DNA of 64,000 bases from Gilliamella apis (GTDB lineage: Bacteria > Pseudomonadota > Gammaproteobacteria > Enterobacterales > Orbaceae). Of this stretch, positions 12,116 to 27,574 are shown in pieces; within the stretch, counting starts at the first letter, position 1, and each line of letters begins with the position of its first letter. The stretch covers positions 2,604,001 to 2,668,000 of the forward strand of contig NZ_CP132381.1 of assembly GCF_030758615.1 (NCBI RefSeq), in the 5' to 3' direction. The position numbers and the translations under genes were made by a program. A model generated the notes under the pieces. That model saw only the letters and a program-made list of their open reading frames with translations. It did not search any database and was not told the origin of the DNA.

Positions 12116-12842
12116 TTTATCCGTTGCACTGGCAATCGCTTACCCAAGTTGGCGAGCAGCTATTTCGTACTGTTGAAACAAGTTTTGCTAAAATGGATAA
12201 CGAACTTCAACAGATTGAACACTATCGAAATTGACCATCTGGCTTAGTGCGTATTAACTGTGGACTACAAGTGATTGAGAGGCTACTACTCTCTAAATTA
12301 GCCCATTTTAAGGACAAATATCCTGATATTCAGTTTGAGTTTATTAGTAATAATCGTTTTGTTGATATTGTTGCAAAAGGATTTGATGTGGGTATTCGTT
12401 TTGGTAGTGGTGTTGCGGAAGATATGGTCGCTTTTTGCATTAGTCAACCTATGAAAATGGCGGTTGTAGCAACGGCTGATTATTTTCAAAAAAAGGATTT
12501 CCTAGCACGATACAAAAGTTAACACAACATCAAGGTATTGGTTATCGTTTATCCAACGGACATCTTTTTTAGTGGCAATTTGAATACTCAGGTCAAATTG
12601 TTAAAATCACCCCACAAGGACAATGGATTTTAAATGATGATTATCCAACGCTCGTTGCCGCAAAAATGGGATTAGGGATTGCTTATTTACCCGAAGAACT
12701 GATTGCAAAGGAACTGGTTAATGGTCAACTCATCCGCATTTTTAATGAGTATAGCTATACTTTTCCATTTTTATACCTCTACTATCCACATCGCAATATA
12801 TCATCCGCATTACGGGTTGTGGTGAATACGTTGAGGGTTTAA
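12116..12842 (+). pseudogene. LysR-family regulator pseudogene
   Basis: Translated in pieces this gives a LysR protein lacking its DNA-binding domain. It begins LTQVGEQLFRTVETSFAKMD, hits TGA at about 12232, continues GLVRINCGLQVIERLLLSKL and FDVGIRFGSGVAEDMV to a frameshift near 12500. It then reads GFPSTIQKLTQHQGIGYRLS, has an in-frame TAG near 12570, and ends with AAKMGLGIAYLPEELIAKEL and a TAA at 12840. The 5' truncation, two stops and one frameshift show it is dead. It lies at the right end of the exporter-esterase cargo. Confidence 0.85.
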
Positions 12843-15951: not shown

Positions 15952-16769
15952 TTAGATAGGCTCTTCCGCTTTAGGTAACCAGTCTTTGCTGACGTTTAAA
16001 TTAAGTTCTAAATTAGTTTTATTTCCTGCTGTATAGCGCTTCTTCATGTATTGCTTGCCGTTCTCGTTCATTGCATAACTTAAAGATGTGCCGAACTGGG
16101 TAAGGGATAGGGGATTATTCAGCCCTGTGTTACGGATGTATTCGATATAAGCATGGTAAAGATACTTTCTTGGATTAAATGGCGTAATTCCAAGATTTCC
16201 TATTAACATACCGGTAGGGTTGTTTAACGCGTCAAAATAGCTACAGAAATCGACTAAATGGTCCGATTCTCTTTTAATAGTCGTTGCTTCTTCTGATTGT
16301 TGCTGTTTGTGTAATCGTTCTTTGACATCATTAGGGTTAGAGAACTCATTAAGTAGCAGTCTAACAATTGAGGGTAGCTCTTGCTCTATTTTGCTAACCA
16401 AGTTTAAATCTCGCTCTTTTTCTGGTATAACCTCGCCAAAGTGAAATATTACTCTTCGCCTTGATATGCCCCCGTTGCGCTCATTAAATCGCATGGCTTC
16501 GTTGTTAATTACTAACACTACTGCTGGAATCTTGCAGGAATAGGGTTGCTTATGTTTAGGGTCAATTGCGACTTCATCACCGCCAGTAATCGCTTTTAAT
16601 CCTGCGCCACTGCCCATGTAACGTGGTTGGTCGGGTAATATGACTAATGAGTAACCCACGATTAAGGCTCTGTCCCTTGCCTTTTCTAATGCGTCCATAG
16701 TGCCTATTACAGTATTGTTTTTACCTGATAACATCGTCGCAATTTCAGCAAAAACACTTTTACCGCGTT
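15952..16769 (-). pseudogene. P4-alpha-type phage primase/helicase, C-terminal fragment
   Basis: The open part (16734-15952, 260 residues) matches the C-terminal helicase region of P4-like satellite primases: DALEKARDRALIVGYSLVIL, GSGAGLKAITGGDEVAIDPK, then GGISRRRVIFHFGEVIPEKE and the winged C-terminus ending in DWLPKAEEP. Reading further upstream in frame gives RGKSVFAEIATMLSG, the end of the Walker A motif, immediately preceded by a stop. The N-terminal primase domain and most of the ATPase are missing. The fragment is joined directly to an integrase fragment. In P4, alpha starts replication by binding iterons. Confidence 0.88.
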
Positions 16770-17500
16770 AATAATTGCCATTCAATCAAGCAACGCGTTT
16801 GTAATTCGATTCGGGCCATAGTAAGGGATTGCATAAATTGGGGAAGCTCTTGTGCGTTTATTGTTGGCATCTGCCCTTTTATAGGGCTTTCAAGCATCTT
16901 TTATCTTGGCTGCTGGGTTAGCATCAATCAAGCCTATATTCACCGCATAAAACATAACCTAATTGATACGTTGGCAAAGTCTTTTAATTGTTTCTAATTT
17001 ACCATTAGCTCTTAGTGGCTCCATGGCCTTAATAAATTCTTTTGCTTTTCATTTAAAGATTGATTTATCACCAATATAAGGAAATAAATGTAACTCTAAC
17101 GATTCCCACGTTCTTTTAAGGTGCTTTCAGTTACTCCTTTACCACTTTTAACTTTAAACCAATCAGCGGCTACCTTTTTAAAGGTGCTAGTAATTTCGTC
17201 ATGCTTGCGTTGTTCTTGTTCTGCTTTGTGCTCTTGAGGATCTACACCTTACTTTATTAATTCTCGCGCTTCATCTCGTTGTTTTCGTGTTTGCTGTAGT
17301 GAAACCTCAGGATAACTACCGAAGCTAATTAATGCGCCCTTTTTGGTATACGGACGAGTATACTTAAAACGCCAGATTTTAGAATTATTCGATTTAACTA
17401 AGAGATACATACCACCGCCATCAAATAAAGAGTAATCTTTATCTCTTGGTTTGGCGGTTTTTATTTGGGTGTCTGTTAATGGATGTGTTTTCCTTCCCAT
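16766..17500 (-). pseudogene. P4-family tyrosine integrase, broken 5' half
   Basis: The DUF4102 N-terminal arm-binding domain is clear (THPLTDTQIKTAKPRDKDYS, FDGGGMYLLV, FGSYPEVSLQQTRKQRDEAR). An in-frame TAA follows ELIK at about 17251, after which GVDPQEHKAEQEQRKHDEI and VAADWFKVKSGKGVTESTL continue. At least two frameshifts and further stops occur before TINAQELPQFMQSLTMARIE and RCLIEWQLLTR. The sequence then runs straight into the alpha fragment, so the catalytic Arg-His-Arg-Tyr domain is gone. It points away from tRNA-Ala in the same direction as the tRNA, as in typical P4-type islands. Confidence 0.9.
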
Positions 17501-17509
17501 AATTATTTA

Positions 17510-17563
17510 AGGTATACGATATATAGGTATATTGCATCTGTATACCTAAGCGTATACCTAAAA
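17510..17563. promoter_or_regulatory. Cluster of GTATACCT motifs upstream of the integrase (arm-site/operator candidate)
   Basis: AGGTATAC or one-base variants occur at 17510-17517 and 17525-17532, and the inverse GTATACCT at 17540-17547 and 17552-17559. The longer cgtatacctaaaa at 17551-17563 recurs exactly at the other island end (7833-7845). Repeats on both sides of the att site are what integrase arm-type sites look like, and they also overlap the integrase promoter region. Confidence 0.55.
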
Positions 17564-17683
17564 ATTATGGTTGTAAATGTACCTTACTGATACTTAATGG
17601 GCAATGAAATAGACATTAAGGCTTGTTATTACTGGATTTGGTGTACTTTGTAGGGTTTAAAAGAATGTTACTGATTATTGAAT

Positions 17684-17759
17684 TGGTGGAGCCAAGGGGG
17701 ATCGAACCCCTGACCTCAACGCTGCCAGCGTTGCGCTCTCCCAGCTGAGCTATGGCCCC
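17684..17759 (-). tRNA. tRNA-Ala (GGC)
   Basis: On the minus strand the 76-base sequence starts GGGGCCATAGCTCAGCTGGG and folds as a cloverleaf. The anticodon stem CAACG/CGTTG encloses CTGGCAG with anticodon GGC. The T-arm GGTTCGATCCCC is canonical and CCA is encoded. The seven acceptor pairs contain one G-U. It lies 120 bases downstream of secF on the same strand, and its 3' end is the attachment site of the island to the left. Confidence 0.97.
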
Positions 17760-17882: not shown

Positions 17883-18884
17883 TTAACGTAAAATTGCGTT
17901 TTGATCCGCGCCTTCTGCTTCAACTTTTGGTGGCATAAAGTGTTCACGTTTCACACCTAATTTAAGCGACATATATGCTGCTACATAAATTGATGAAATT
18001 GTACCTAACACAATACCAACCCCTAATGTTTCAGAGAAACCTTTTAACATTGAACCACCGAAGATATATAAGATAATAACAACGGCTAACGTTGTGCCAG
18101 ATGTCATTAAGGTTCGATGTAATGTTTGGGTTAACGAAATGTTGATAACATCATATGGCGACGCACGTCGTATTTTTCTAAAATTCTCACGAATTCGGTC
18201 GAATACAACGATAGTATCATTAAGAGAATAACCAATGATAGATAACATTGCTGCAATAATGGTTAAATCCAACTCACGATCAAAGAGTGATAAATAACCA
18301 GCGGTAATAACCACGTCATGCGCTAATGCTACAACAGCACCAGTACCAAATCGCCATTCAAATCGAAATGCAATATAGATTAAGATACAAATTAATGCGG
18401 CGCAGATCGCCAAAATACCATCTTGAGCTAATTCAGAACCAACCGTAGGACCAACGAATTCAACTCGCTTAATTTCAGCATTACTATCAATATCTTTATG
18501 TACTAAATTAGAGATTTTAGTACCTAATGCATTATCAATTGCAGATGATGCACTACTCTCATTTTGATTGGCGGTGGCTAATCGGATAATAATATCTTTA
18601 CTGCTACCATAATACTGAACGACTGGCTCATGATAACCTGCATCACGTAAACTATTACGTAAATCATCAAGATTTACAGCTTTAGTTACTGTCAGTTCAA
18701 CGGTGGTACCACCGGTAAAATCCTGTCCAAGATTAAAGCCTTTAACAAGAATAACCACAAATGAAACAACAACCAATAACATTGAGATAACAAAAGCAAT
18801 AAAGCCAAATTTTAAAAAGTCGAGTACTCTTCGTCCATGATTTAGTTCTCTAACATCATGATTTTCTTTTTTATTAATAGTCAC
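17883..18884 (-). CDS. secF: Protein translocase subunit SecF
   Basis: SecF works with SecD in the inner membrane, using proton flow to pull proteins through SecYEG from the periplasmic side. Family marks are FNLGQDFTGGTTVEL near residue 55, VEFVGPTVGSELAQDGI at the start of the transmembrane core, ALAHDVVITAGYLSLFDRE and GYSLNDTIVVFDRIRENFRK. Six membrane segments are apparent. The start is GTG at 18884 with AGAGG six bases upstream. It follows secD by nine bases. Confidence 0.97.
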   Translation of the reverse strand: MTINKKENHDVRELNHGRRVLDFLKFGFIAFVISMLLVVVSFVVILVKGFNLGQDFTGGTTVELTVTKAVNLDDLRNSLRDAGYHEPVVQYYGSSKDIIIRLATANQNESSASSAIDNALGTKISNLVHKDIDSNAEIKRVEFVGPTVGSELAQDGILAICAALICILIYIAFRFEWRFGTGAVVALAHDVVITAGYLSLFDRELDLTIIAAMLSIIGYSLNDTIVVFDRIRENFRKIRRASPYDVINISLTQTLHRTLMTSGTTLAVVIILYIFGGSMLKGFSETLGVGIVLGTISSIYVAAYMSLKLGVKREHFMPPKVEAEGADQNAILR

Positions 18885-18893
18885 AATAAACCT

Positions 18894-20750
18894 CTAAATT
18901 GATAACTTATTGACGCGACGACCACCATAAATAAGATTGGCCAGAGCTCGAGTCCCTACGATCGAGGTAAACATCGATGTTACAATACCGATACCTAATG
19001 TAATGGCAAAGCCTTTGATAGAACCTGTACCTACTGCATAAAGAATAATCGCAGTTATCAATGTAGTAATATTGGCGTCAAAAATACTACTCCAAGCACC
19101 AGCATAACCTTCGTTAATTGCATGTTGGACACCTCGACCATTACTGAGCTCTTCTTTTATACGCTCATTAATTAAAACATTCGCATCGACCGCCATACCT
19201 ACAGTTAGTACGATACCTGCAATCCCTGGCATACTTAATGTTGCTCCAGGTAATAAAGACATTGCACCAACAATTAAAATTAAGTTTGCAACTAATGCAA
19301 GACTAGCAAATACACCAAATAGACGATATACCACTAACATAAAGATTACCGAAATTAATAATCCCCATACACAAGATTCTAAACCTTGAGTGATATTTTC
19401 TTGCCCCATTGATGGCCCAACGGTGCGTTCTTCGATTATTTGGATCGGCGCAATCAAGGCTCCTGCTCTTAATAATAGTGATAAATTTCTAGCTTCATCA
19501 ACACTACTAATCCCAGTTACTTGGAATCGGTCACTAAAAATACCTTGGATCGTTGCTACATTGATAACTCTCTCTTGTTTTTCAAGAATAGGTTTATCAT
19601 TTTCATCACGTTTTCCAGTATCTTTATATTCAACAAATAATGTTGCCATTGCTTTTTTCAGATGTTTCTGCGTGAAATCAAGCATGGTTTTGCCACCAGC
19701 ACTATCTAAGTTAATAGAAACTTCTGGTTGGCTATATTCATTTACTCTAAATGAAGAATCGGTAATATGATCACCCGTTAATACCACACGTTTATAAAGT
19801 AAGACCGGACGACCATTTTCCATATATTTTATTTCAGAACCATATGGAACACGCATTTCACCTTTTAAAATAGCTTCTAAATTAGTTGAACCATCTTCAT
19901 TTACTTGTCTAAACTCAAGGGTTGCAGTTGCACCTAAAATTCGTTTAGCTAATGCAGTATCTTGAATACCTGGTAACTCAACAACAATACGATCAGAGCC
20001 TTGACGTTGAACAATTGGTTCAGCAACACCTAATTGATTAACACGATTACGCAAAATGGTGGTATTTTGTTGTACAGCATCACTTTTAGCTTGTTGTAGG
20101 CGCTGTTGGCTAACACTAATAACGATGCTATTTTCACTTTGCGAAGTTAATTCATAATCTAGCAATCCATTAATTTTAGTAATAGCTTTGTTTCGATCTT
20201 CTGTATTATCGAATTGCATTAAGATTTGTTGATTACTACTTTTATTTAATGCTTTGTAATTTAAATTATTTTTATTGAACTCTGCTTTTAAATTTTCAAT
20301 CGATTGTTCTGTCAATTTACTTAACGCAGTAGTCATATCTACTTCCATTAAGAAATGCACACCACCACGCAAATCGAGCCCTAATTTCATGGGTTCGGCA
20401 CCAATGATCGTTAACCATGATGGTGTTGCAGGCGCTAGATTTAGTGCAACAGTATAATCATCACCTAATTCTTGTGATATTAATTCCTTAGCTTTCAGCT
20501 GAGTATCATTATCACTTAAACGAATTAAAATAGATTTATTTTCATAAACTAGTGATTTAGGTTCAATTTGATTTTTCACCAAAAGTTGTTTGACTTTATC
20601 TTGCGTAGCAACATTAATTTCGGCACTATTTGAACCTGAAATTTGTATAGCGGGATCTTCACCATAAATATTTGGAAGAGCATAAAGTAGGCCGACGCAA
20701 ATCACGGCGACCAACATAATGTACTTCCACAAAGGATAGCGATTTAGCAC
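18894..20750 (-). CDS. secD: Protein translocase subunit SecD
   Basis: 618 residues, the normal E. coli length. The GTG start at 20750 gives MLNRYPLWKYIMLVAVI, identical in form to E. coli SecD. The periplasmic P1 region holds LGLDLRGGVHFLMEVDM; the second part has LPGIQDTALAKRILGATATL; the membrane core has GMAVDANVLINERIKEEL with the Asp needed for proton use. It acts with SecF and YajC at the SecYEG channel. The operon order yajC-secD-secF is conserved. Confidence 0.97.
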   Translation of the reverse strand: MLNRYPLWKYIMLVAVICVGLLYALPNIYGEDPAIQISGSNSAEINVATQDKVKQLLVKNQIEPKSLVYENKSILIRLSDNDTQLKAKELISQELGDDYTVALNLAPATPSWLTIIGAEPMKLGLDLRGGVHFLMEVDMTTALSKLTEQSIENLKAEFNKNNLNYKALNKSSNQQILMQFDNTEDRNKAITKINGLLDYELTSQSENSIVISVSQQRLQQAKSDAVQQNTTILRNRVNQLGVAEPIVQRQGSDRIVVELPGIQDTALAKRILGATATLEFRQVNEDGSTNLEAILKGEMRVPYGSEIKYMENGRPVLLYKRVVLTGDHITDSSFRVNEYSQPEVSINLDSAGGKTMLDFTQKHLKKAMATLFVEYKDTGKRDENDKPILEKQERVINVATIQGIFSDRFQVTGISSVDEARNLSLLLRAGALIAPIQIIEERTVGPSMGQENITQGLESCVWGLLISVIFMLVVYRLFGVFASLALVANLILIVGAMSLLPGATLSMPGIAGIVLTVGMAVDANVLINERIKEELSNGRGVQHAINEGYAGAWSSIFDANITTLITAIILYAVGTGSIKGFAITLGIGIVTSMFTSIVGTRALANLIYGGRRVNKLSI

Positions 20751-20808
20751 GACATATTCTCTTGTGGGATTAGATAATTAATACAATGAATTATAATAGG
20801 AAAATCTA

Positions 20809-21141
20809 TTATAATGATTTCATTGTTCCTTTTGGTAATACTGATGTGATAAAGTCACGTTTGATAACAACTTCAGTTGTATCATTTAACTCTAACACAA
20901 TATAACCATTTTCATTAACTTTTGATACTCGACCAATAAGTCCACCATTAGTTAATACTTCATCACCTTTTGAAATAGAAGCCATTAACTCGCGATGTGC
21001 TTTAGCACGTTTTTGTTGTGGACGCATAATCATAAAATAGAAAAATAGTCCAAACACGACTAACATGATAGGTAAAAAATAAGGATTTGCTTCAGCACTA
21101 GCACCATCAGCTGCGTATGCATTAGAAATAAAAAAGTCCAT
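20809..21141 (-). CDS. yajC: Preprotein translocase accessory subunit YajC
   Basis: 110-residue single-span inner-membrane protein of the SecDF-YajC complex. The membrane helix is PYFLPIMLVVFGLFFYFMIM (near residues 20-40), followed directly by the family motif RPQQKRAKAHRELMASISKG and DEVLTNGGLIGRVSKV. The operon normally starts with tgt (queuosine transglycosylase); here the upstream neighbour is nuoN instead. Confidence 0.96.
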   Translation of the reverse strand: MDFFISNAYAADGASAEANPYFLPIMLVVFGLFFYFMIMRPQQKRAKAHRELMASISKGDEVLTNGGLIGRVSKVNENGYIVLELNDTTEVVIKRDFITSVLPKGTMKSL

Positions 21142-21323: not shown

Positions 21324-23039
21324 TTAAGTCGTTAAATATTGTGCCATACTAACCAGGTTAAATAACCATTTAGGATAAACACCACATACCATGGTTAAAA
21401 ATGCTGCGATAACAATAAACAATTCACTCACTTTTATATCTCGCCACTTCAATTTAATAATAGAATTATTACTGGAGAAATCATCACGATTGATAGGCCT
21501 GATATAAAGATTGAGAATAAGTCTTGAGTAGAAATATAATCCTATGGTACTACCAATCACTACTGCAGCAATTAACCACCATAATTCAGCCGTAACCCCT
21601 AATAGAACTAAAAGAAAACGCCCCACAAAACCCGCAGTAAGTGGTGCTCCTGCTAGAGATAATAAACCGACTCCCATTGCTAAGGCTAAAATAGGTCGAC
21701 GCCAAAATAATCCTGAAAGATCAATTTCCTTTTCATGATCCTGTAACTCATTGGAATGGGATTCTAAGCTGATCACGCCTAAAACACAGATGTTGGCAAA
21801 AATGTAGCCAATTAAATAAACACCTATTGTTTCTAAAGCGAGCACTTGATACTGCACGGCAATTAATGCCAGCAAAAGATAACCAAAATGAGCAATTGAT
21901 GAATAAGCCAGTAACCTTTTTAAGCTACTTTGCATTAATGCCGATAAATTTCCCCATAGAATTGAACAAAAGGCCATAATAACCAAAATAATACGGATTG
22001 TTTCATTATTCACTATTGGCGCTAATAAAAATAGTCTGGCAATAGCACAAAACACAGCAACTTTACCTACAGTTGATAGTAGTAATGAAACAACAGTCGG
22101 AGCCCCTTGATAAACGTCGGGTAACCAAAGTTGAAAAGGTACCAGCGAAAGTTTAAAACCAATACCAACTAACATTAAACAAATACCGATTAATAATAAA
22201 GTACTTGGATAAGTCATAGTTGATAATTGATAACTTAAACCACTAAATGTGAGCTCACCAGTAGTTGCATAATAGAAAGCAATTCCCATTAACAAAAATG
22301 AACTAGCAATGGCGGACAAAATCATATATTTAATCGCAGCTTCAAGCGCATGAGTTTGGATATATTGATAGCCTATTAAACCTATAAATGGAATTGAAAG
22401 CAACTCAATGCCAAGAAAGAATGACATTAAGTGGCTAGCATAAACTAAAGTTATTCCGCCTAACGCCATAAACAGTAAAATTAGATAGAATAATCCATGG
22501 TTGATTTTTTCTTGTACAAACCATCGATAAGCTAATGATGAAACCACAATTGAAATAATTAAAATTAAGCAGGTATAAAGTAATCCATAACCATCACAAG
22601 TAAATAATGCAGTAACATGACGTGCTTGCCATTCGTTATTGGTATCATACTGCTGAGTATCATCAACCTGAGGGAATGGTCCAACCATATCATTATTTTC
22701 CGCAATAGATTCGGTAACTTCTTCACTTGTTGAGGCGGTGGTTTCTTGCTCCGTAGGTACGGTATCAATAGCGACTGTTTGTTCTGTTGCAGATGTTGTA
22801 TCGGTATTCTCTGCTGGCGAAGAAACCGATATTTGCATATTATCACTACTAATATCTGATATTGCTTCGGTATTAAAGGAAATTTTATACCCCAAAAATG
22901 CTGAGCCGATTAGTGCAAAAATTAATCCCGATATGGTTAAAGTAGCACATTTTTTAGTATCTATTTTAAAAATAAATAGTGCGATGAGCAAAATTATTAT
23001 GGCAAAGCTCAATATAAATATTGGCAATAAAGCTATCAT
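21324..23039 (-). CDS. nuoN: NADH-quinone oxidoreductase subunit N (with long low-complexity insertion)
   Basis: Antiporter-like membrane subunit of complex I nearest the quinone side. The core is well conserved: GIELLSIPF (Glu212), LEAAIKYMIL (Lys237), GIGFKLSLVPF (Lys296) and STVGKVAVF (Lys326) match E. coli Glu133, Lys158, Lys217 and Lys247 with a constant offset of 79. The E. coli His224 and Lys395 positions are Gln303 and Arg474. The offset comes from an acidic, Thr/Ser/Glu-rich stretch at about residues 55-140, between two early membrane helices, not known from E. coli NuoN. Length is 571 against 485. It follows nuoM by six bases. Confidence 0.93.
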   Translation of the reverse strand: MIALLPIFILSFAIIILLIALFIFKIDTKKCATLTISGLIFALIGSAFLGYKISFNTEAISDISSDNMQISVSSPAENTDTTSATEQTVAIDTVPTEQETTASTSEEVTESIAENNDMVGPFPQVDDTQQYDTNNEWQARHVTALFTCDGYGLLYTCLILIISIVVSSLAYRWFVQEKINHGLFYLILLFMALGGITLVYASHLMSFFLGIELLSIPFIGLIGYQYIQTHALEAAIKYMILSAIASSFLLMGIAFYYATTGELTFSGLSYQLSTMTYPSTLLLIGICLMLVGIGFKLSLVPFQLWLPDVYQGAPTVVSLLLSTVGKVAVFCAIARLFLLAPIVNNETIRIILVIMAFCSILWGNLSALMQSSLKRLLAYSSIAHFGYLLLALIAVQYQVLALETIGVYLIGYIFANICVLGVISLESHSNELQDHEKEIDLSGLFWRRPILALAMGVGLLSLAGAPLTAGFVGRFLLVLLGVTAELWWLIAAVVIGSTIGLYFYSRLILNLYIRPINRDDFSSNNSIIKLKWRDIKVSELFIVIAAFLTMVCGVYPKWLFNLVSMAQYLTT

Positions 23040-23045
23040 AAGTTA

Positions 23046-24590
23046 TTACTCTCCCACTCGTTCGGTAATTATATATTGCAGTGTTTGGTTAACAATAGAA
23101 TAAGACATATCTAAAACCATTTTTGGATATAATCCAATAAAAATTAATACAATAAGAACACTAGACAATAGAAAAATATCTTTTTTACTCAGCAAGTGTT
23201 TTGTAACCGTAATTTTATCAACTTCACCATAAAAAATAGGTTGCATGCGAATAATTAACGATATCGACAATAACAATAATCCAATTGCTAATAAAATAGT
23301 GTAATAAGGATATGAATTATAACTACCTAATAACATCATATAATTACCTATGAAGTTAGCTGTTCCGGGAATACCTAACACAGCTAACATGAAAAACAGA
23401 GTAAAAGAAGACAAATACTTTACTTGTTCTTTTAAGCCAATAAATTGGTTAATATTTCGAGTTAAATAGCATTCTGCTAATAAACCACTTATTATAAACA
23501 TACCAACAATAGCTAAATTAATCGCTATCATTTGAATAACAACACCTTGGAAAGCAATAACTGAGCCGCTAAAGATAATCGCCGTCACAAACCCCATTAA
23601 AGCAATATGGATATAAGCAATCAGTTTCTTAATATCGGTTTGATTAAAAGCAAGTAACGCGGTGTAAAATAGCGTGCATATAGCTAATACTAAAATAAAC
23701 GGCATAATCGCTAACGAAGCATTAGGGAAAAGAGGTATCACAAAACGTAATAAACCAAATGCCGCCGTATTAACTAATAAACCACTAATCATCATCGAAC
23801 CACTTGTTGAAGATTCGATATGTGCCTCAATAAACCAATTATGAAAAGGGATTAAAGGAATTCGTATAATAAAAGCGGCTAAAAATCCTAGCATTAATAA
23901 AAATTCGGTATTACTTGAAATCGGCGTCTTAGTTAAAATTTGATAATCAAAAGTCCATTTTGCCGTTAGATTCCAGTTGATCAAAGCCAACGACACAATC
24001 GATATTAGCATTAGTAGGCTACTTATCTGAGTGTAAATTAAAAATTTACTAGCCCCATTAAAACGTAATTGAGAATTTAAATCGCGTCTGCCCCACAATG
24101 AAATTAAAAAATAAATTGGAATAGCTACCGCTTCCCAGAAGAAAAACATTAAAAACAGATCAGTAATTACGAATAACATCATAATGGCTGATGTCATAAA
24201 TAATACACATAAATAAAACAATCCGACATTATTAAGATTTTCTTTACTAGAATAAACAATAACTAACAATACAATAAAGAGTGTTGAACTAATAACAATC
24301 AAAGATAAACCATCTAATACCAGATGAAAATGAATGCCAAGTAAAGGTATCCAATCAATATTAACTTCTTTAATCCAGTTTGGACTTTGTTCTAAAGCAC
24401 TATTTGCATCTGCCCATAAAACAATTACCAAAATAAATGTGATTAATATGGTTGTAAGAGCAATCATCATTGGTAAACGTTGCCAACGCAACTGTATATC
24501 GGTTGAAGTCACGATTCTTTGTAAAAATACATGACAAAACCAACCAATAAATCCACCAATTACAGGTAAGAAAACAAGCCATAACAACAT
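23046..24590 (-). CDS. nuoM: NADH-quinone oxidoreductase subunit M (key proton-path residues altered)
   Basis: 514 residues from the ATG at 24590, which reproduces the family start MLLWLVFLPVIGGF; a GTG nine bases upstream is in frame. Complex I hallmarks include MFFFWEAVAIPIYFLISLWG with Glu153 (E. coli Glu144), RIPLIPFHNWFIEAHIE and LAVLGIPGTANFIGNYMML. Compared with E. coli, Lys234 is Arg243 (IIRIP), Lys265 is Asn274 (LLVNTAAFGLLRF) and Glu407 is Asn416 (IGNYM). These residues are needed for normal activity in E. coli, so proton transfer through this subunit is doubtful even though the reading frame is intact. Confidence 0.92.
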   Translation of the reverse strand: MLLWLVFLPVIGGFIGWFCHVFLQRIVTSTDIQLRWQRLPMMIALTTILITFILVIVLWADANSALEQSPNWIKEVNIDWIPLLGIHFHLVLDGLSLIVISSTLFIVLLVIVYSSKENLNNVGLFYLCVLFMTSAIMMLFVITDLFLMFFFWEAVAIPIYFLISLWGRRDLNSQLRFNGASKFLIYTQISSLLMLISIVSLALINWNLTAKWTFDYQILTKTPISSNTEFLLMLGFLAAFIIRIPLIPFHNWFIEAHIESSTSGSMMISGLLVNTAAFGLLRFVIPLFPNASLAIMPFILVLAICTLFYTALLAFNQTDIKKLIAYIHIALMGFVTAIIFSGSVIAFQGVVIQMIAINLAIVGMFIISGLLAECYLTRNINQFIGLKEQVKYLSSFTLFFMLAVLGIPGTANFIGNYMMLLGSYNSYPYYTILLAIGLLLLSISLIIRMQPIFYGEVDKITVTKHLLSKKDIFLLSSVLIVLIFIGLYPKMVLDMSYSIVNQTLQYIITERVGE

Positions 24591-24606
24591 TAAGTTCACA
24601 CCTTTA

Positions 24607-26454
24607 TCAAATAAAAATCAATAACATTAATATAATAATGCTACCTATTACCATTGAAACCATATACCATCTTATTTGTCCATTTTCTAAACTGACAATA
24701 TAGGCATTTATTTTCTTTATACCCCACATAATCCAATCATCCCATAAGGCTAGTGGATCCTTTTTCAATAAGTTTGCTAAATAAATATACGGTTTTACAA
24801 AAAAATTATTTAACAAATAGTCGAATCGCCAATCACTTTTACATAATTTTCCTAACGATTTGATCATCGGAGTATTAAGAATTTCATGAACTTCAGCATT
24901 CGGATGAGCATAAAGAATATATGCAATGACAAAACTTAATAGGGTTACTGCACACAATAATATTCTAAATGGGATTTGACCTTGTGTATCTAAATTGGCT
25001 AGTGGGATTATCCCTTGTATCGGTAATGGTAAGTAGATAAACAGTGCCGTAGTAAATATCAATAAAATAAAAATCGGATAATAATTTATTTTTCTGATTC
25101 TTATTATTTTTTCAATTTTAATTGAATGATGAAAAACTAAAAATATCAAACGCCAAATGCATAAACTCGACAATAAAATTCCTAATAAGCCAATAGTACC
25201 GGCCATTAAGCTATCTTGAACCATTAAACCCCAGATAATATCGCCTTTAATATAAAAAGATGCGGAGACCCACGGTAAGGCACTAAGTGATAACATGATG
25301 ACTAAGAAAATTGCATATAAGACTCTATTAGACTTTAACAAGCCACCAAGTTTATTGATGTCCCGTTCACCTTGGCACTGTTTGATTAAAATTGCAGAAG
25401 CAAGAATGAGTAAAGTGCTAGTAACAGTATAATTAATCAAACAACTTAAGGATAAATTCCAGCTCTGTGTCGAAAATGCATAAAATAGATAACTTATTTG
25501 CGCTAAATTGATATAAGTTATAATCTGTTTTATATCATTTTGAACCAAAGCAATACTACTAGCAAAAATAACAGTTAAAGAAGCGAATAAAAGCATTATA
25601 TAAAGCGTATCACTTGACATCATAAACAGATTACTTAGCCTTAGGACTAGATAAACACCAGCGAATATAACAGTAGATGATTGCAATAACGCGACAGCAG
25701 GCATCGGTGCTAGTGTTGTTTCTTTGAACCATGAATGCATTGGGAAAAGCGCTGATTTACTCATAGCGCCAAGGAATAACATCAACGTAATCCAAAAAAT
25801 AATGTCTGAATCAACTGCTAAGTCATTATGTGCTTTTATTAAAATATCACTGATTTTTAATGTTTCTAAAGTCTGATAAAGTAAAAATATACCTATGATT
25901 AGAAAAATATCAGTTAAATGCATCATAACAAATGCTTTAACTGCTGCATAACTATTGCGAGTTTGTTTGTAGTAGATACCAATAAGTAAGTAAGTACTTA
26001 TACTTACCCCTTCCCAACCAAGTAACATCACAAACAAATTATCAACAAGAACAACCGTTAACACACTTGCTATCAGTAAATTGCTATATGCATAAAAAGT
26101 GTAAATATCTTTCCTCGATTTTAAATAACAGGCAGCAAAAAAATAGATCAACAAACCAAAGAATGATATTAATACCAAGAATGTCAGTGATAAGCCATCT
26201 AGCGTTAAAGATATAGGAACATCAAAATCACCAACTGAAAACCAAGTCCATAAATTTCTTGTATAAACCAATGTCATATCTGGAACTGTATTGGTAGTAA
26301 AATCAATACAAGAAAATATTGTTATTAATCCAACAAGAAACATCGTACAAATCCCGATTAACATAACATTAATGGATTGTATTTGTCGCCCAAAACAGAC
26401 TAATATCAAGAAAGATAGCAATGGAACAATGATAGTTAAATAAAGTAAATTCAT
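24607..26454 (-). CDS. nuoL: NADH-quinone oxidoreductase subunit L (divergent)
   Basis: Distal antiporter-like subunit with the long lateral helix, 615 residues. Glu148 (LGWEGVSISTYLLIG), Lys233 (MSKSALFPMHSW) and Lys309 (NDIKQ) keep the E. coli Glu144, Lys229 and Lys305 positions. The usual HAATM segment (His254) is replaced by LQSSTVIFAGVYL (Gln258). The usual MTHAFFKALLF segment is LINYTVTSTLLI, so the two histidines and Lys342 are lost. The lateral-helix region (FDYLLNNFFVKPYIYLANLL) and the C-terminal RWYMVSMVIGSI are normal. It overlaps nuoK by four bases. Assignment as NuoL is firm, but its proton route looks damaged. Confidence 0.92.
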   Translation of the reverse strand: MNLLYLTIIVPLLSFLILVCFGRQIQSINVMLIGICTMFLVGLITIFSCIDFTTNTVPDMTLVYTRNLWTWFSVGDFDVPISLTLDGLSLTFLVLISFFGLLIYFFAACYLKSRKDIYTFYAYSNLLIASVLTVVLVDNLFVMLLGWEGVSISTYLLIGIYYKQTRNSYAAVKAFVMMHLTDIFLIIGIFLLYQTLETLKISDILIKAHNDLAVDSDIIFWITLMLFLGAMSKSALFPMHSWFKETTLAPMPAVALLQSSTVIFAGVYLVLRLSNLFMMSSDTLYIMLLFASLTVIFASSIALVQNDIKQIITYINLAQISYLFYAFSTQSWNLSLSCLINYTVTSTLLILASAILIKQCQGERDINKLGGLLKSNRVLYAIFLVIMLSLSALPWVSASFYIKGDIIWGLMVQDSLMAGTIGLLGILLSSLCIWRLIFLVFHHSIKIEKIIRIRKINYYPIFILLIFTTALFIYLPLPIQGIIPLANLDTQGQIPFRILLCAVTLLSFVIAYILYAHPNAEVHEILNTPMIKSLGKLCKSDWRFDYLLNNFFVKPYIYLANLLKKDPLALWDDWIMWGIKKINAYIVSLENGQIRWYMVSMVIGSIIILMLLIFI

Positions 26455-26753
26455 CCTTTCATTTCACTCAATGAGTCAATATTAAAGTTTTTACGTCGAT
26501 AAATTAATTTTACCAATAAAGCAAGCCCGACAGATATTTGAGCTAATACAGCCGTTACCGCTAATATAGCAAGCACCTCTCCATCGGATTGTTGCCAATA
26601 ACTACTTGCGACAAAAAGTGCAGCGATGGCCCCATTATTCATGATGACAAGACTTAACAATAAGAAATAGAGATTACGTCTAATCATTACCCCTAAAAGT
26701 CCTATTACAAATAAGATTGAGGCAAAAATCAAACCATACATAAGTGGTATCAC
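26451..26753 (-). CDS. nuoK: NADH-quinone oxidoreductase subunit K (both conserved glutamates lost)
   Basis: 100 residues that align end to end with E. coli NuoK: MIPLMYGLIFASILFVIGLL, IRRNLYFLLL, the SYWQQSDGEV loop and the end NIDSLSEMKG. Two membrane glutamates that are nearly invariant and required for pumping, Glu36 and Glu72, are Val36 (SLVIMNN) and Gln72 (LAQISVGLALL). The rest is so close to the family that misalignment is unlikely. It lies between nuoJ and nuoL with an ATGA overlap to nuoL. Confidence 0.95.
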   Translation of the reverse strand: MIPLMYGLIFASILFVIGLLGVMIRRNLYFLLLSLVIMNNGAIAALFVASSYWQQSDGEVLAILAVTAVLAQISVGLALLVKLIYRRKNFNIDSLSEMKG

Positions 26754-26754
26754 A

Positions 26755-27246
26755 TTATTTCTCCGACAGCATTCGATGCATAAAATGATAAGATATAACT
26801 GCAGCGCCTAATAATAAAAACGCAGCTAACTCAGCCATTAATACATAAGCATAGATTGACATTTGGTGCATCAATTCATGCGATTCAGTGAATTGTGTAT
26901 AGTCAGTACTTACTACGCCATAAATAAGAACAACTAATAAAATAAATGCTAAAACTAATGGCCCTAGCCAAATTTTAGGACTAATACCATGTTTACCATT
27001 TTCAACATTGTCACGACGTATTTCCAGCATTAAAGAAACAGCTCTAAACAGAATGACTGCTCCACTTATAAAAAAGAGAATATATAAAACAGCCGAAATA
27101 TACGTTTCAAGGAGAATAAATATTAATGCTGATGCAAAAAGTGATATAGCCAGATATAAAATTGCTTTTTCTACTCGCCGACAAAAAATCACTTTTATAC
27201 TTGCAACAACAGCAATTATCGATGCGATATAAAAAACAACGATCAT
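26755..27246 (-). CDS. nuoJ: NADH-quinone oxidoreductase subunit J
   Basis: 163 residues from the ATG at 27246; a TTG twelve bases upstream would add MDEL. Five membrane segments are visible, with CRRVEKAILYLAISLFASAL early and LMAELAAFLLLGAAVISYH late, as in E. coli NuoJ. The third helix, which forms a functional bulge in complex I, reads LYILFFISGAVILFRAVSLM and appears one residue shorter than in E. coli, with the conserved Tyr59 position not Tyr. First gene of the local nuoJKLMN set; nuoA-I are not upstream. Confidence 0.9.
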   Translation of the reverse strand: MIVVFYIASIIAVVASIKVIFCRRVEKAILYLAISLFASALIFILLETYISAVLYILFFISGAVILFRAVSLMLEIRRDNVENGKHGISPKIWLGPLVLAFILLVVLIYGVVSTDYTQFTESHELMHQMSIYAYVLMAELAAFLLLGAAVISYHFMHRMLSEK

Positions 27247-27574
27247 TAATTCATCCAATACCTATTCATAATGCCACTAGTATATACTTAATTGACAACA
27301 ATATACAGTTTACTAACCTAGTGTTAATGCAAAAAAGTCTTTCTAAATAGAATATTAACCTTTCATAATAGTCAGGATATTTATTTAGCAAATATAATAA
27401 AAACAATAGAAATAATAAAATCCATAAAATTTTATTATTTAAATTCAATACAACATTGTTATAAAGTATGTATTCTGAGCGATTAACCTATATTTATACC
27501 TTTTTCTTTAAATTGTCATTTTAATCATGCAGCTTAAAGGTACTTAGGCAAAATATAAACAAGTAGAGAATAGA
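27247..27574. other. Intergenic region between divergent nuoJ and ppc
   Basis: 328 very AT-rich bases that must hold the promoters of the nuoJKLMN transcript (-) and ppc (+). No gene, stable RNA or clear repeat was recognised, and no nuoI or nuoH remnant is visible. Confidence 0.6.

Follow-up and report, generated by a model that had tools for sequence, protein, structure and literature searches.

Complex I, the Mrp (CPA3) antiporters and hydrogenase-4/formate hydrogenlyase (Hyf) all have antiporter-like membrane subunits, which in Mrp stand free of redox partners; NuoL, NuoM/NuoN, NuoK and NuoJ of complex I are homologous to MrpA-N, MrpD, MrpC and MrpA-C, respectively (PMC7419157). A further free-standing case has been described in bacteria of the family Orbaceae: nuoJKLMN, five of the 14 nuo genes, are present in all 95 Gilliamella genomes and conserved across the family (PMC11325843). 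The accessible part of that article suggests that these orphan genes may be no more than remnants left by genome reduction, reports no analysis of residues, selection or surfaces and, citing earlier work, describes missing nuo genes as common to Candidatus Schmidhempelia bombi also (PMC11325843). Among the literature search results listed, in some cases the first 20 entries, it was the only article found on an orphan nuoJKLMN arm; nuo terms are absent from PMC10104596 and PMC13372188. Here, we analyze the nuoJKLMN locus of Gilliamella apis in a stretch of 64,000 nucleotides (positions 2,604,001 to 2,668,000 of contig NZ_CP132381.1; hereafter, the window), taken from a genome that is a single closed contig of 2,714,786 bases and 99.99% complete. 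At the level of sequence, we demonstrate a retained nuoJKLMN arm under purifying selection, with no NuoA, NuoD or NuoH, in which relay residues are cut in NuoL and NuoM and NuoN is spared, with an outer face that, by the topology assigned, is newly constrained. New with respect to the literature found are the family-wide residue pattern, the evidence from selection against a remnant, and the constrained face and insert of NuoN.

The five genes lie in series on the minus strand (27258 to 21324), between a divergent ppc gene and yajC-secD-secF, and a profile search matched all five products to the NuoJ to NuoN family models. In the following list, and in substitutions given below as, for example, K234R, the first residue and number are those of Escherichia coli:

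nuoJ, 26755..27258, minus strand: 167 amino acids from a TTG; Pfam PF00499; Y59 replaced by F63; C-terminus shorter than that of E. coli NuoJ.
nuoK, 26451..26753, minus strand: 100 amino acids; E36 replaced by V36 (codon 26648-26646) and E72 by Q72 (codon 26540-26538).
nuoL, 24607..26454, minus strand: 615 amino acids; H254 replaced by Q258, H334 by C338, H338 by Y342, K342 by S346 and D400 by G404; kept are E148, D182, K233 and K403 (E. coli E144, D178, K229 and K399).
nuoM, 23046..24599, minus strand: 517 amino acids from a GTG; K234 replaced by R246 (codon 23864-23862), K265 by N277 (23771-23769), E407 by N419 (23345-23343), H322 by L334 and H348 by I360; E156 (E. coli E144) kept.
nuoN, 21324..23039, minus strand: 571 amino acids; E212, K237, K296 and K326 kept (E. 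coli E133, K158, K217 and K247); K395 replaced by R474.
NuoN insert, approximately 22632..22877, minus strand: loop between transmembrane helices (TM) 2 and 3, about residues 55-136; acidic, rich in Ser, Thr, Glu and Asp; periplasmic by the assigned topology.

For nuoJ, an ATG four codons downstream of the TTG, at 27246, is the likelier start, because in seven relatives a stop lies just upstream of that ATG; in these seven the NuoJ match reaches past the chosen start by up to four codons, where it meets the stop, the gene itself being open. The arm shares with complex I of the Enterobacterales type the gene order J-K-L-M-N, the subunit lengths, the family matches and the fold of NuoM, the model of which (mean predicted local distance difference test score, pLDDT, 87; predicted template modelling score, pTM, 0.89) shows an antiporter-like fold of 14 helices, in which TM7 and TM12 are broken, and has E. 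coli NuoM as its best match (TM-score 0.91).

The window was compared with 41 relatives, giving 42 Orbaceae rows from five genera (33 from the window's own genus group and nine from the four others, so that counts are not of independent events), and with 21 complex I rows, from E. coli K-12 and 20 loci of the order; two outgroup rows in which NuoL is short (L085 and L086) were excluded for this subunit, leaving 19. In three Orbaceae rows (L057, L058 and L060) an internal NuoN start was used, which leaves out the first helices and some of the insert; the longer open frames code for 694, 646 and 664 residues. All five reading frames are open in all 42 arms, as expected from the earlier note on this DNA, made from the sequence alone, which had held that the arm is kept as intact protein. 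One arm (G002), which appeared broken because of a split NuoM match with one TGA, was found to have open frames upon extraction. In a FastTree phylogeny of the NuoL, NuoM and NuoN proteins (42 Orbaceae and 19 complex I rows), a single branch with full support separates the Orbaceae from the complex I of the order.

In NuoM, positions 234, 265 and 407 are Lys, Lys and Glu in 21/21 complex I rows and in 0/42 Orbaceae rows. K234R, H322L and E407N are each fixed in all 42, Lys265 is replaced throughout by Asn, Thr, Ser or Gly, and position 348, Ile in the window, is variable in Orbaceae; Glu144 is kept in 42/42. The earlier note had reported the replacements at 234, 265 and 407 as Arg243, Asn274 and Asn416, counting from an ATG three codons past the GTG start; with R246, N277 and N419 in their place, the claim holds. 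It had also named, as an observation that would speak against it, charged residues displaced by a few positions: in the window no substitute Lys, Glu or His lies within four residues of NuoM 265 or 407 or of NuoL 342, and one shift is present, a His three residues before position 322 (S319H), in 41/42 rows. The changes at NuoM 234, 265 and 407 are neither chance nor an alignment slip. Moreover, among the best 120 of 481 NuoM matches in a search of 5.8 billion proteins, Arg at 234 and the absence of Lys265, His322 and Glu407 are common to 119, with identities as low as 45% (two of these end before position 407), and the last, at 44% identity, has the canonical residues. The closest named NuoM proteins are those of Gilliamella sp. 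N-G2 (99%) and G. apis NO3 (97%), and the named records with the same genes belong to Gilliamella, Orbus, Utexia and other Orbaceae.

In NuoL, H338Y is found in 42/42 rows, Lys342 is lost in 42/42 (to Ser, Thr or Ile, with Ser in 40) and His254 is Gln in 39/42; both the loss of the HxxxHxxxK helix and the Gln258 that had been read from the window alone are borne out by the alignment. Retained are Glu144 (39/42), Asp178 (42/42), Lys229 (40/42) and Lys399 (41/42), and the C-terminal stretch, a long amphipathic helix in E. coli, can be aligned over its whole length. Complex I of E. coli carrying NuoM E407K retains pumping, estimated at 75% (PMC9271201, in the part available), so that a single loss need not abolish it, but in the Orbaceae arm at least four relay residues are gone in NuoM and at least four in NuoL. 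NuoK Glu36, invariant in the complex I rows, is Met, Ile or Val in all 42 Orbaceae; Val36 and Gln72 of the window are as first described, but the second change is not family-wide, with Glu in 25 and Gln in 17 of the 42 rows, for which the phylogeny requires at least five changes. NuoJ Tyr59, also invariant in complex I, is Phe in 42/42. The earlier suggestion that NuoJ helix 3 is one residue short was not upheld, since no gap is seen in that helix among the 16 aligned rows listed. NuoM H322L and H348I, NuoL D400G and NuoJ Y59F are losses beyond those first described. Judged from the rows compared, the residue losses are family-wide and old.

NuoN is different. The equivalents of Glu133, Lys158, Lys217 and Lys247 are present in 42/42 Orbaceae rows, as the earlier note had seen in the window, and Arg replaces Lys395 in 41/42, again in agreement with it; Gln303 in the place of His224, counted there as a loss, is not one in any strict sense, because 4/21 complex I rows also have Gln at this position. 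The same contrast between subunits is seen among the columns conserved at 95% or more in complex I, of which the following are held at that level in Orbaceae: 41/48 in NuoN, 47/86 in NuoM, 33/100 in NuoL, 7/12 in NuoK and 4/15 in NuoJ.

The complex I subunits searched for beyond these five are absent. Profile searches of the closed genome of G. apis gave no match to NuoD or NuoH, nor to the hydrogenase large subunit family PF00346, and NuoA was matched in 0/44 Orbaceae genomes, this one included. The label "complex I membrane arm" given before is thus correct for J, K, L, M and N but incomplete, NuoA and NuoH having no match in the same genome. The proposal that the arm may pump fewer or no protons is moot for complex I as such, because NuoD, NuoH and NuoA are absent and five of the 14 nuo genes are listed for Gilliamella (PMC11325843, in the part available). 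Of the features that mark complex I, homologous and collinear J to N are found, and NuoD/NuoH, NuoA, the NuoL and NuoM relay residues and NuoK Glu36 are not. NuoD-like and NuoH-like matches occur in the same five of 44 family genomes. A hidden complex I was rejected for one of these (G012), where the locus proved, protein by protein, to be a hydrogenase-4; at the remaining four loci both matches lie within a few kb on one contig each. By these matches, hydrogenase-4 type loci are present in 5/44 family genomes (L075, L076 and three others), at a different locus and with their own HyfB/F-type proteins. The arm is found in 37 of the 39 genomes with neither match.

A NuoM relative was found in 42/44 family genomes and in 39/39 of high quality; the two with no match, which are outside the 42 rows, are 59% and 74% complete. 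Such an arm is rare elsewhere. Among 397 sampled members of the phylum, one of them from Orbaceae, NuoM is present in 340 (E ≤ 1e-35) and NuoH in 345 (E ≤ 1e-20); six have NuoH only and a single one, the genome studied here, NuoM only, a count obtained by reading the two match lists against each other and taking the remainder from the totals. Among 158 genomes of the order outside Orbaceae, NuoM better than 1e-30 occurs without NuoH once, in a genome that is 60% complete. A possible parallel case is that of fumarate reductase: according to the part of PMC11325843 available, its membrane anchor genes frdCD are present in all Orbaceae, the catalytic frdAB having been lost in part of the family.

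All five genes show the mark of purifying selection. Median ratios of non-synonymous to synonymous substitution (dN/dS) are 0.158 for nuoJ, 0.082 for nuoK, 0.099 for nuoL, 0.077 for nuoM and 0.104 for nuoN, with 0.30 for the highest single pair, and those of the neighboring genes, which served as the reference set, are 0.038 for ppc, 0.064 for secD, 0.045 for secF and 0.102 for yajC (pairwise NG86 estimates from pairs with dS of 0.1-1.0; 50-417 pairs per gene). Constraint on the nuo genes is comparable to that of yajC and weaker than that of ppc, secD and secF, and is far from neutral. Neither broken frames nor a dN/dS near 1, either of which would be expected of a decaying pseudogene cluster, were seen. 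The earlier view that function has changed and has not simply decayed gains support from the open frames in 42/42 arms, the low dN/dS and the old and largely fixed substitutions.

Unexpected from the earlier note, which had missed the orphan state of the arm, the spread of its pattern through the family and the preservation of NuoN, was a new constraint on the periplasmic face of this subunit. The topology of NuoN was assigned from hydropathy and loop charge, and 11 spread Orbaceae rows and 11 Enterobacterales complex I rows, hand-picked and of like depth (mean identity 0.61 and 0.58, respectively), were compared. Of 101 periplasmic columns, 60 are conserved in the Orbaceae rows versus 13 in the Enterobacterales (11 when two reduced genomes are left out), 16 in a second complex I clade (five rows), and 54 in the five deepest Orbaceae rows. 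For the 150 cytoplasmic columns, the corresponding numbers are 63 for Orbaceae, 59 for Enterobacterales (56 without the reduced genomes), 56 for the other clade and 60 for the deepest Orbaceae. This difference is stable to shifts in topology of up to four residues and draws on seven of the eight periplasmic stretches. Conservation gained in Orbaceae amounts to 50/101 periplasmic versus 25/150 cytoplasmic columns (Fisher p = 5e-8). Gained conservation has no periplasmic bias in NuoM (p = 0.74). Synonymous variation on the periplasmic face of NuoN is normal, which indicates that the constraint acts on the protein. At five positions of this face (D149, E262, E346, E403 and E485) an acidic residue is found in 40-42 of the 42 rows.

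The insert between TM2 and TM3 is 59-152 residues long and net negative in 42/42 Orbaceae, versus 0-2 residues in 21/21 complex I rows. It is fast-evolving (dN/dS 0.45) and probably disordered. In some Gilliamella apicola the insert has Asn/Thr/Glu-rich repeats (P0191, P0197, P0206, P0215 and P0229), with NuoN lengths that include 643, 653, 663, 673 and 703 residues; length differences by tens of residues are what a variable-number repeat within the gene of a membrane protein would produce.

The surroundings of the arm are also largely conserved. The two flanking elements are the following, the names ppc, yajC, secD and secF having been assigned from the translated sequences and not by family search:

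Intergenic region, 27259..27574, common to the divergent ppc (plus strand) and nuoJ (minus strand): presumed promoter of the nuo operon.
yajC-secD-secF, 17883..21141, minus strand: neighbors, whose membership in the nuo system is not shown.

In 38/41 relatives yajC directly follows nuoN, and in 33/41 a divergent ppc lies beside nuoJ. The three exceptions for yajC (L059, L061 and L063) form one Gilliamella clade on the tree, in which the ppc-nuoJKLMN block is seemingly inverted relative to yajC-secD (in L061, L063 and probably L059): in two of the three, yajC and secD are found on the far side of ppc and point the other way, the arrangement that an inversion would leave, and the third contig stops at this place. 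In the region preceding nuoJ, only weak matches to regulatory motifs (1-2 mismatches), not conserved, were seen among the 19 of 42 regions listed; a scan for promoters and terminators returned fewer sites than in shuffled sequence, and no terminator-like site between nuoN and yajC. The periplasmic domain of SecD shows no special excess of conservation (222/414 columns versus 204 in the outgroups), the larger excess being in its membrane part; for this comparison 11 of 28 outgroup rows were matched as nearly as possible to the identity of the Orbaceae rows, and are still more diverged (0.71 versus 0.77), and L062 was used in place of L063, in which SecD is cut. Downstream of secF are a tRNA-Ala (17684-17759) and fragments of an integrase arm domain (83 residues, PF13356) and of a D5-like primase/helicase (260 residues, PF03288), at window positions 17249-17759 and 15952-16734, probably a degraded integrated element. 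A 91-residue fragment of a LysR substrate-binding domain (12247-12522) is probably the remnant of a LysR-type regulator.

How, then, may the arm work? The explanation that we favor, with somewhat less than even confidence, is that it has been reused, and is not a leftover, as a redox-free membrane complex centered on NuoN and with a new periplasmic interface. In Orbaceae the parts of complex I for quinone and electron input (NuoA, NuoD and NuoH being those tested) are gone, and strong purifying selection has kept the five distal membrane subunits, J to N. The five proteins most likely still form one complex, in which NuoL and NuoM, judging from the central relay residues that are gone, would probably serve as scaffold or proton-tight spacers. 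NuoN would be the working subunit, a redox-independent conductor of protons or of a proton-coupled cation through its Glu133-Lys217-Lys247 relay, with Arg for Lys395; on its periplasmic side a new partner may dock or gate it, or it may use the proton-motive force to act on such a partner. In a more specific form, which we regard as possible but rather doubtful, the arm would be a proton-driven periplasmic actuator: NuoN would conduct protons down their gradient, and its acidic face and flexible insert would drive or obey a periplasmic partner, with NuoM and NuoL as proton-tight scaffold.

Several observations weigh against this explanation. Assembly, proton conduction and the partner are what we infer, and the model of NuoN (mean pLDDT 40.6) was not used, its topology coming from hydropathy and loop charge and not from a structure. 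NuoK Glu36 and NuoJ Tyr59 (each in 42/42 rows) and NuoK Glu72 (in 17/42) are lost, and as these residues adjoin NuoN in complex I, its path may be cut off. NuoM Lys265 and His348, NuoL His334 and NuoK Glu36 are variable and not fixed in their replacements, which resembles relaxed constraint at these sites. Three of the neighbors, ppc, secD and secF, are under tighter constraint than the nuo genes, and the neighbors, not a working complex I, are the yardstick for dN/dS. A weak periplasmic bias is also found in NuoL (p = 0.03-0.11), and the conserved face of NuoN could be a surface for assembly or self-association. Moreover, if, as earlier work cited in the accessible part of PMC11325843 holds, Ca. 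Schmidhempelia bombi shares in the lack of nuo genes, a lineage with no arm would show that the arm is dispensable.

A membrane scaffold with no ion transport, in which the NuoL and NuoM paths were closed against leak by an uncoupled arm and which holds or positions another protein of the membrane or periplasm, appears unlikely, even though it would account for the relay losses in both subunits and for the new face and insert of NuoN. YajC-SecDF is one candidate for the protein held, given the position of yajC after nuoN in most relatives; however, the periplasmic domain of SecD lacks the special excess of conservation, and the relay residues of NuoN, kept throughout, would be needless for a pure scaffold. 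Reversion of the arm to the antiporter that it resembles, an Mrp-like Na+ or K+/H+ exchanger, is in keeping with the subunit homologies and with the five acidic residues on the face of NuoN, but seems decidedly unlikely. The arm amounts to two MrpD-like subunits plus NuoL, with no MrpB, MrpE, MrpF or MrpG in the operon: no gene-sized gap exists within J to N in the window or in the 41 relatives, in a search of the locus and not of whole genomes. The cation-site residues are gone as well, along with the NuoM and NuoL relays, NuoJ 59, which corresponds to MrpA E706, being Phe and NuoK 36 hydrophobic in all 42 rows; the MrpC histidines correspond to the NuoK glutamates, in a register taken from the available text of PMC7419157 and not aligned here.

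Two further readings fare less well still. That the lost arm was replaced by an unrecognized module for electron input, such as NDH-2 or the FrdCD anchor named in PMC11325843, and that the complex is still redox-coupled would fit the conservation of frdCD together with nuoJKLMN across Orbaceae, the presence of ndh in all 95 Gilliamella genomes and the persistence of ubiquinone-8 and cytochrome bd (PMC11325843, in the part available). We consider it very unlikely: the residues nearest to the lost quinone module, NuoK Glu36 and NuoJ Tyr59, are gone in every row, no extra gene is found within J to N (41 relatives) or in the short gaps to yajC (38/41) and ppc (33/41), and known input modules sit on the cytoplasmic side, whereas the face newly conserved here is that of the periplasm. 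The non-functional remnant of genome reduction suggested in PMC11325843 has on its side the disappearance of NuoA, NuoD and NuoH, the drift of NuoJ and of the NuoL axis, which is the greatest in the arm, the variability of some lost sites and the fast evolution of the NuoN insert. It is highly improbable in our view, because frames are open across five genera, median dN/dS is 0.08-0.16 in all five genes, and neither fixed residue switches nor newly gained conservation would be expected under decay.

How the three antiporter-like subunits share the pumping in complex I is debated (PMC9271201, in the part available). The Orbaceae arm, as we read it, is a natural experiment on this question, in which the redox arm has been removed, the relays of NuoL and NuoM cut and NuoN spared, and the outcome held under selection across a family. 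It speaks against the published remnant reading (PMC11325843), which would discourage further search; the arm may instead offer a natural system for isolating the function of NuoN, and points to a partner to look for.

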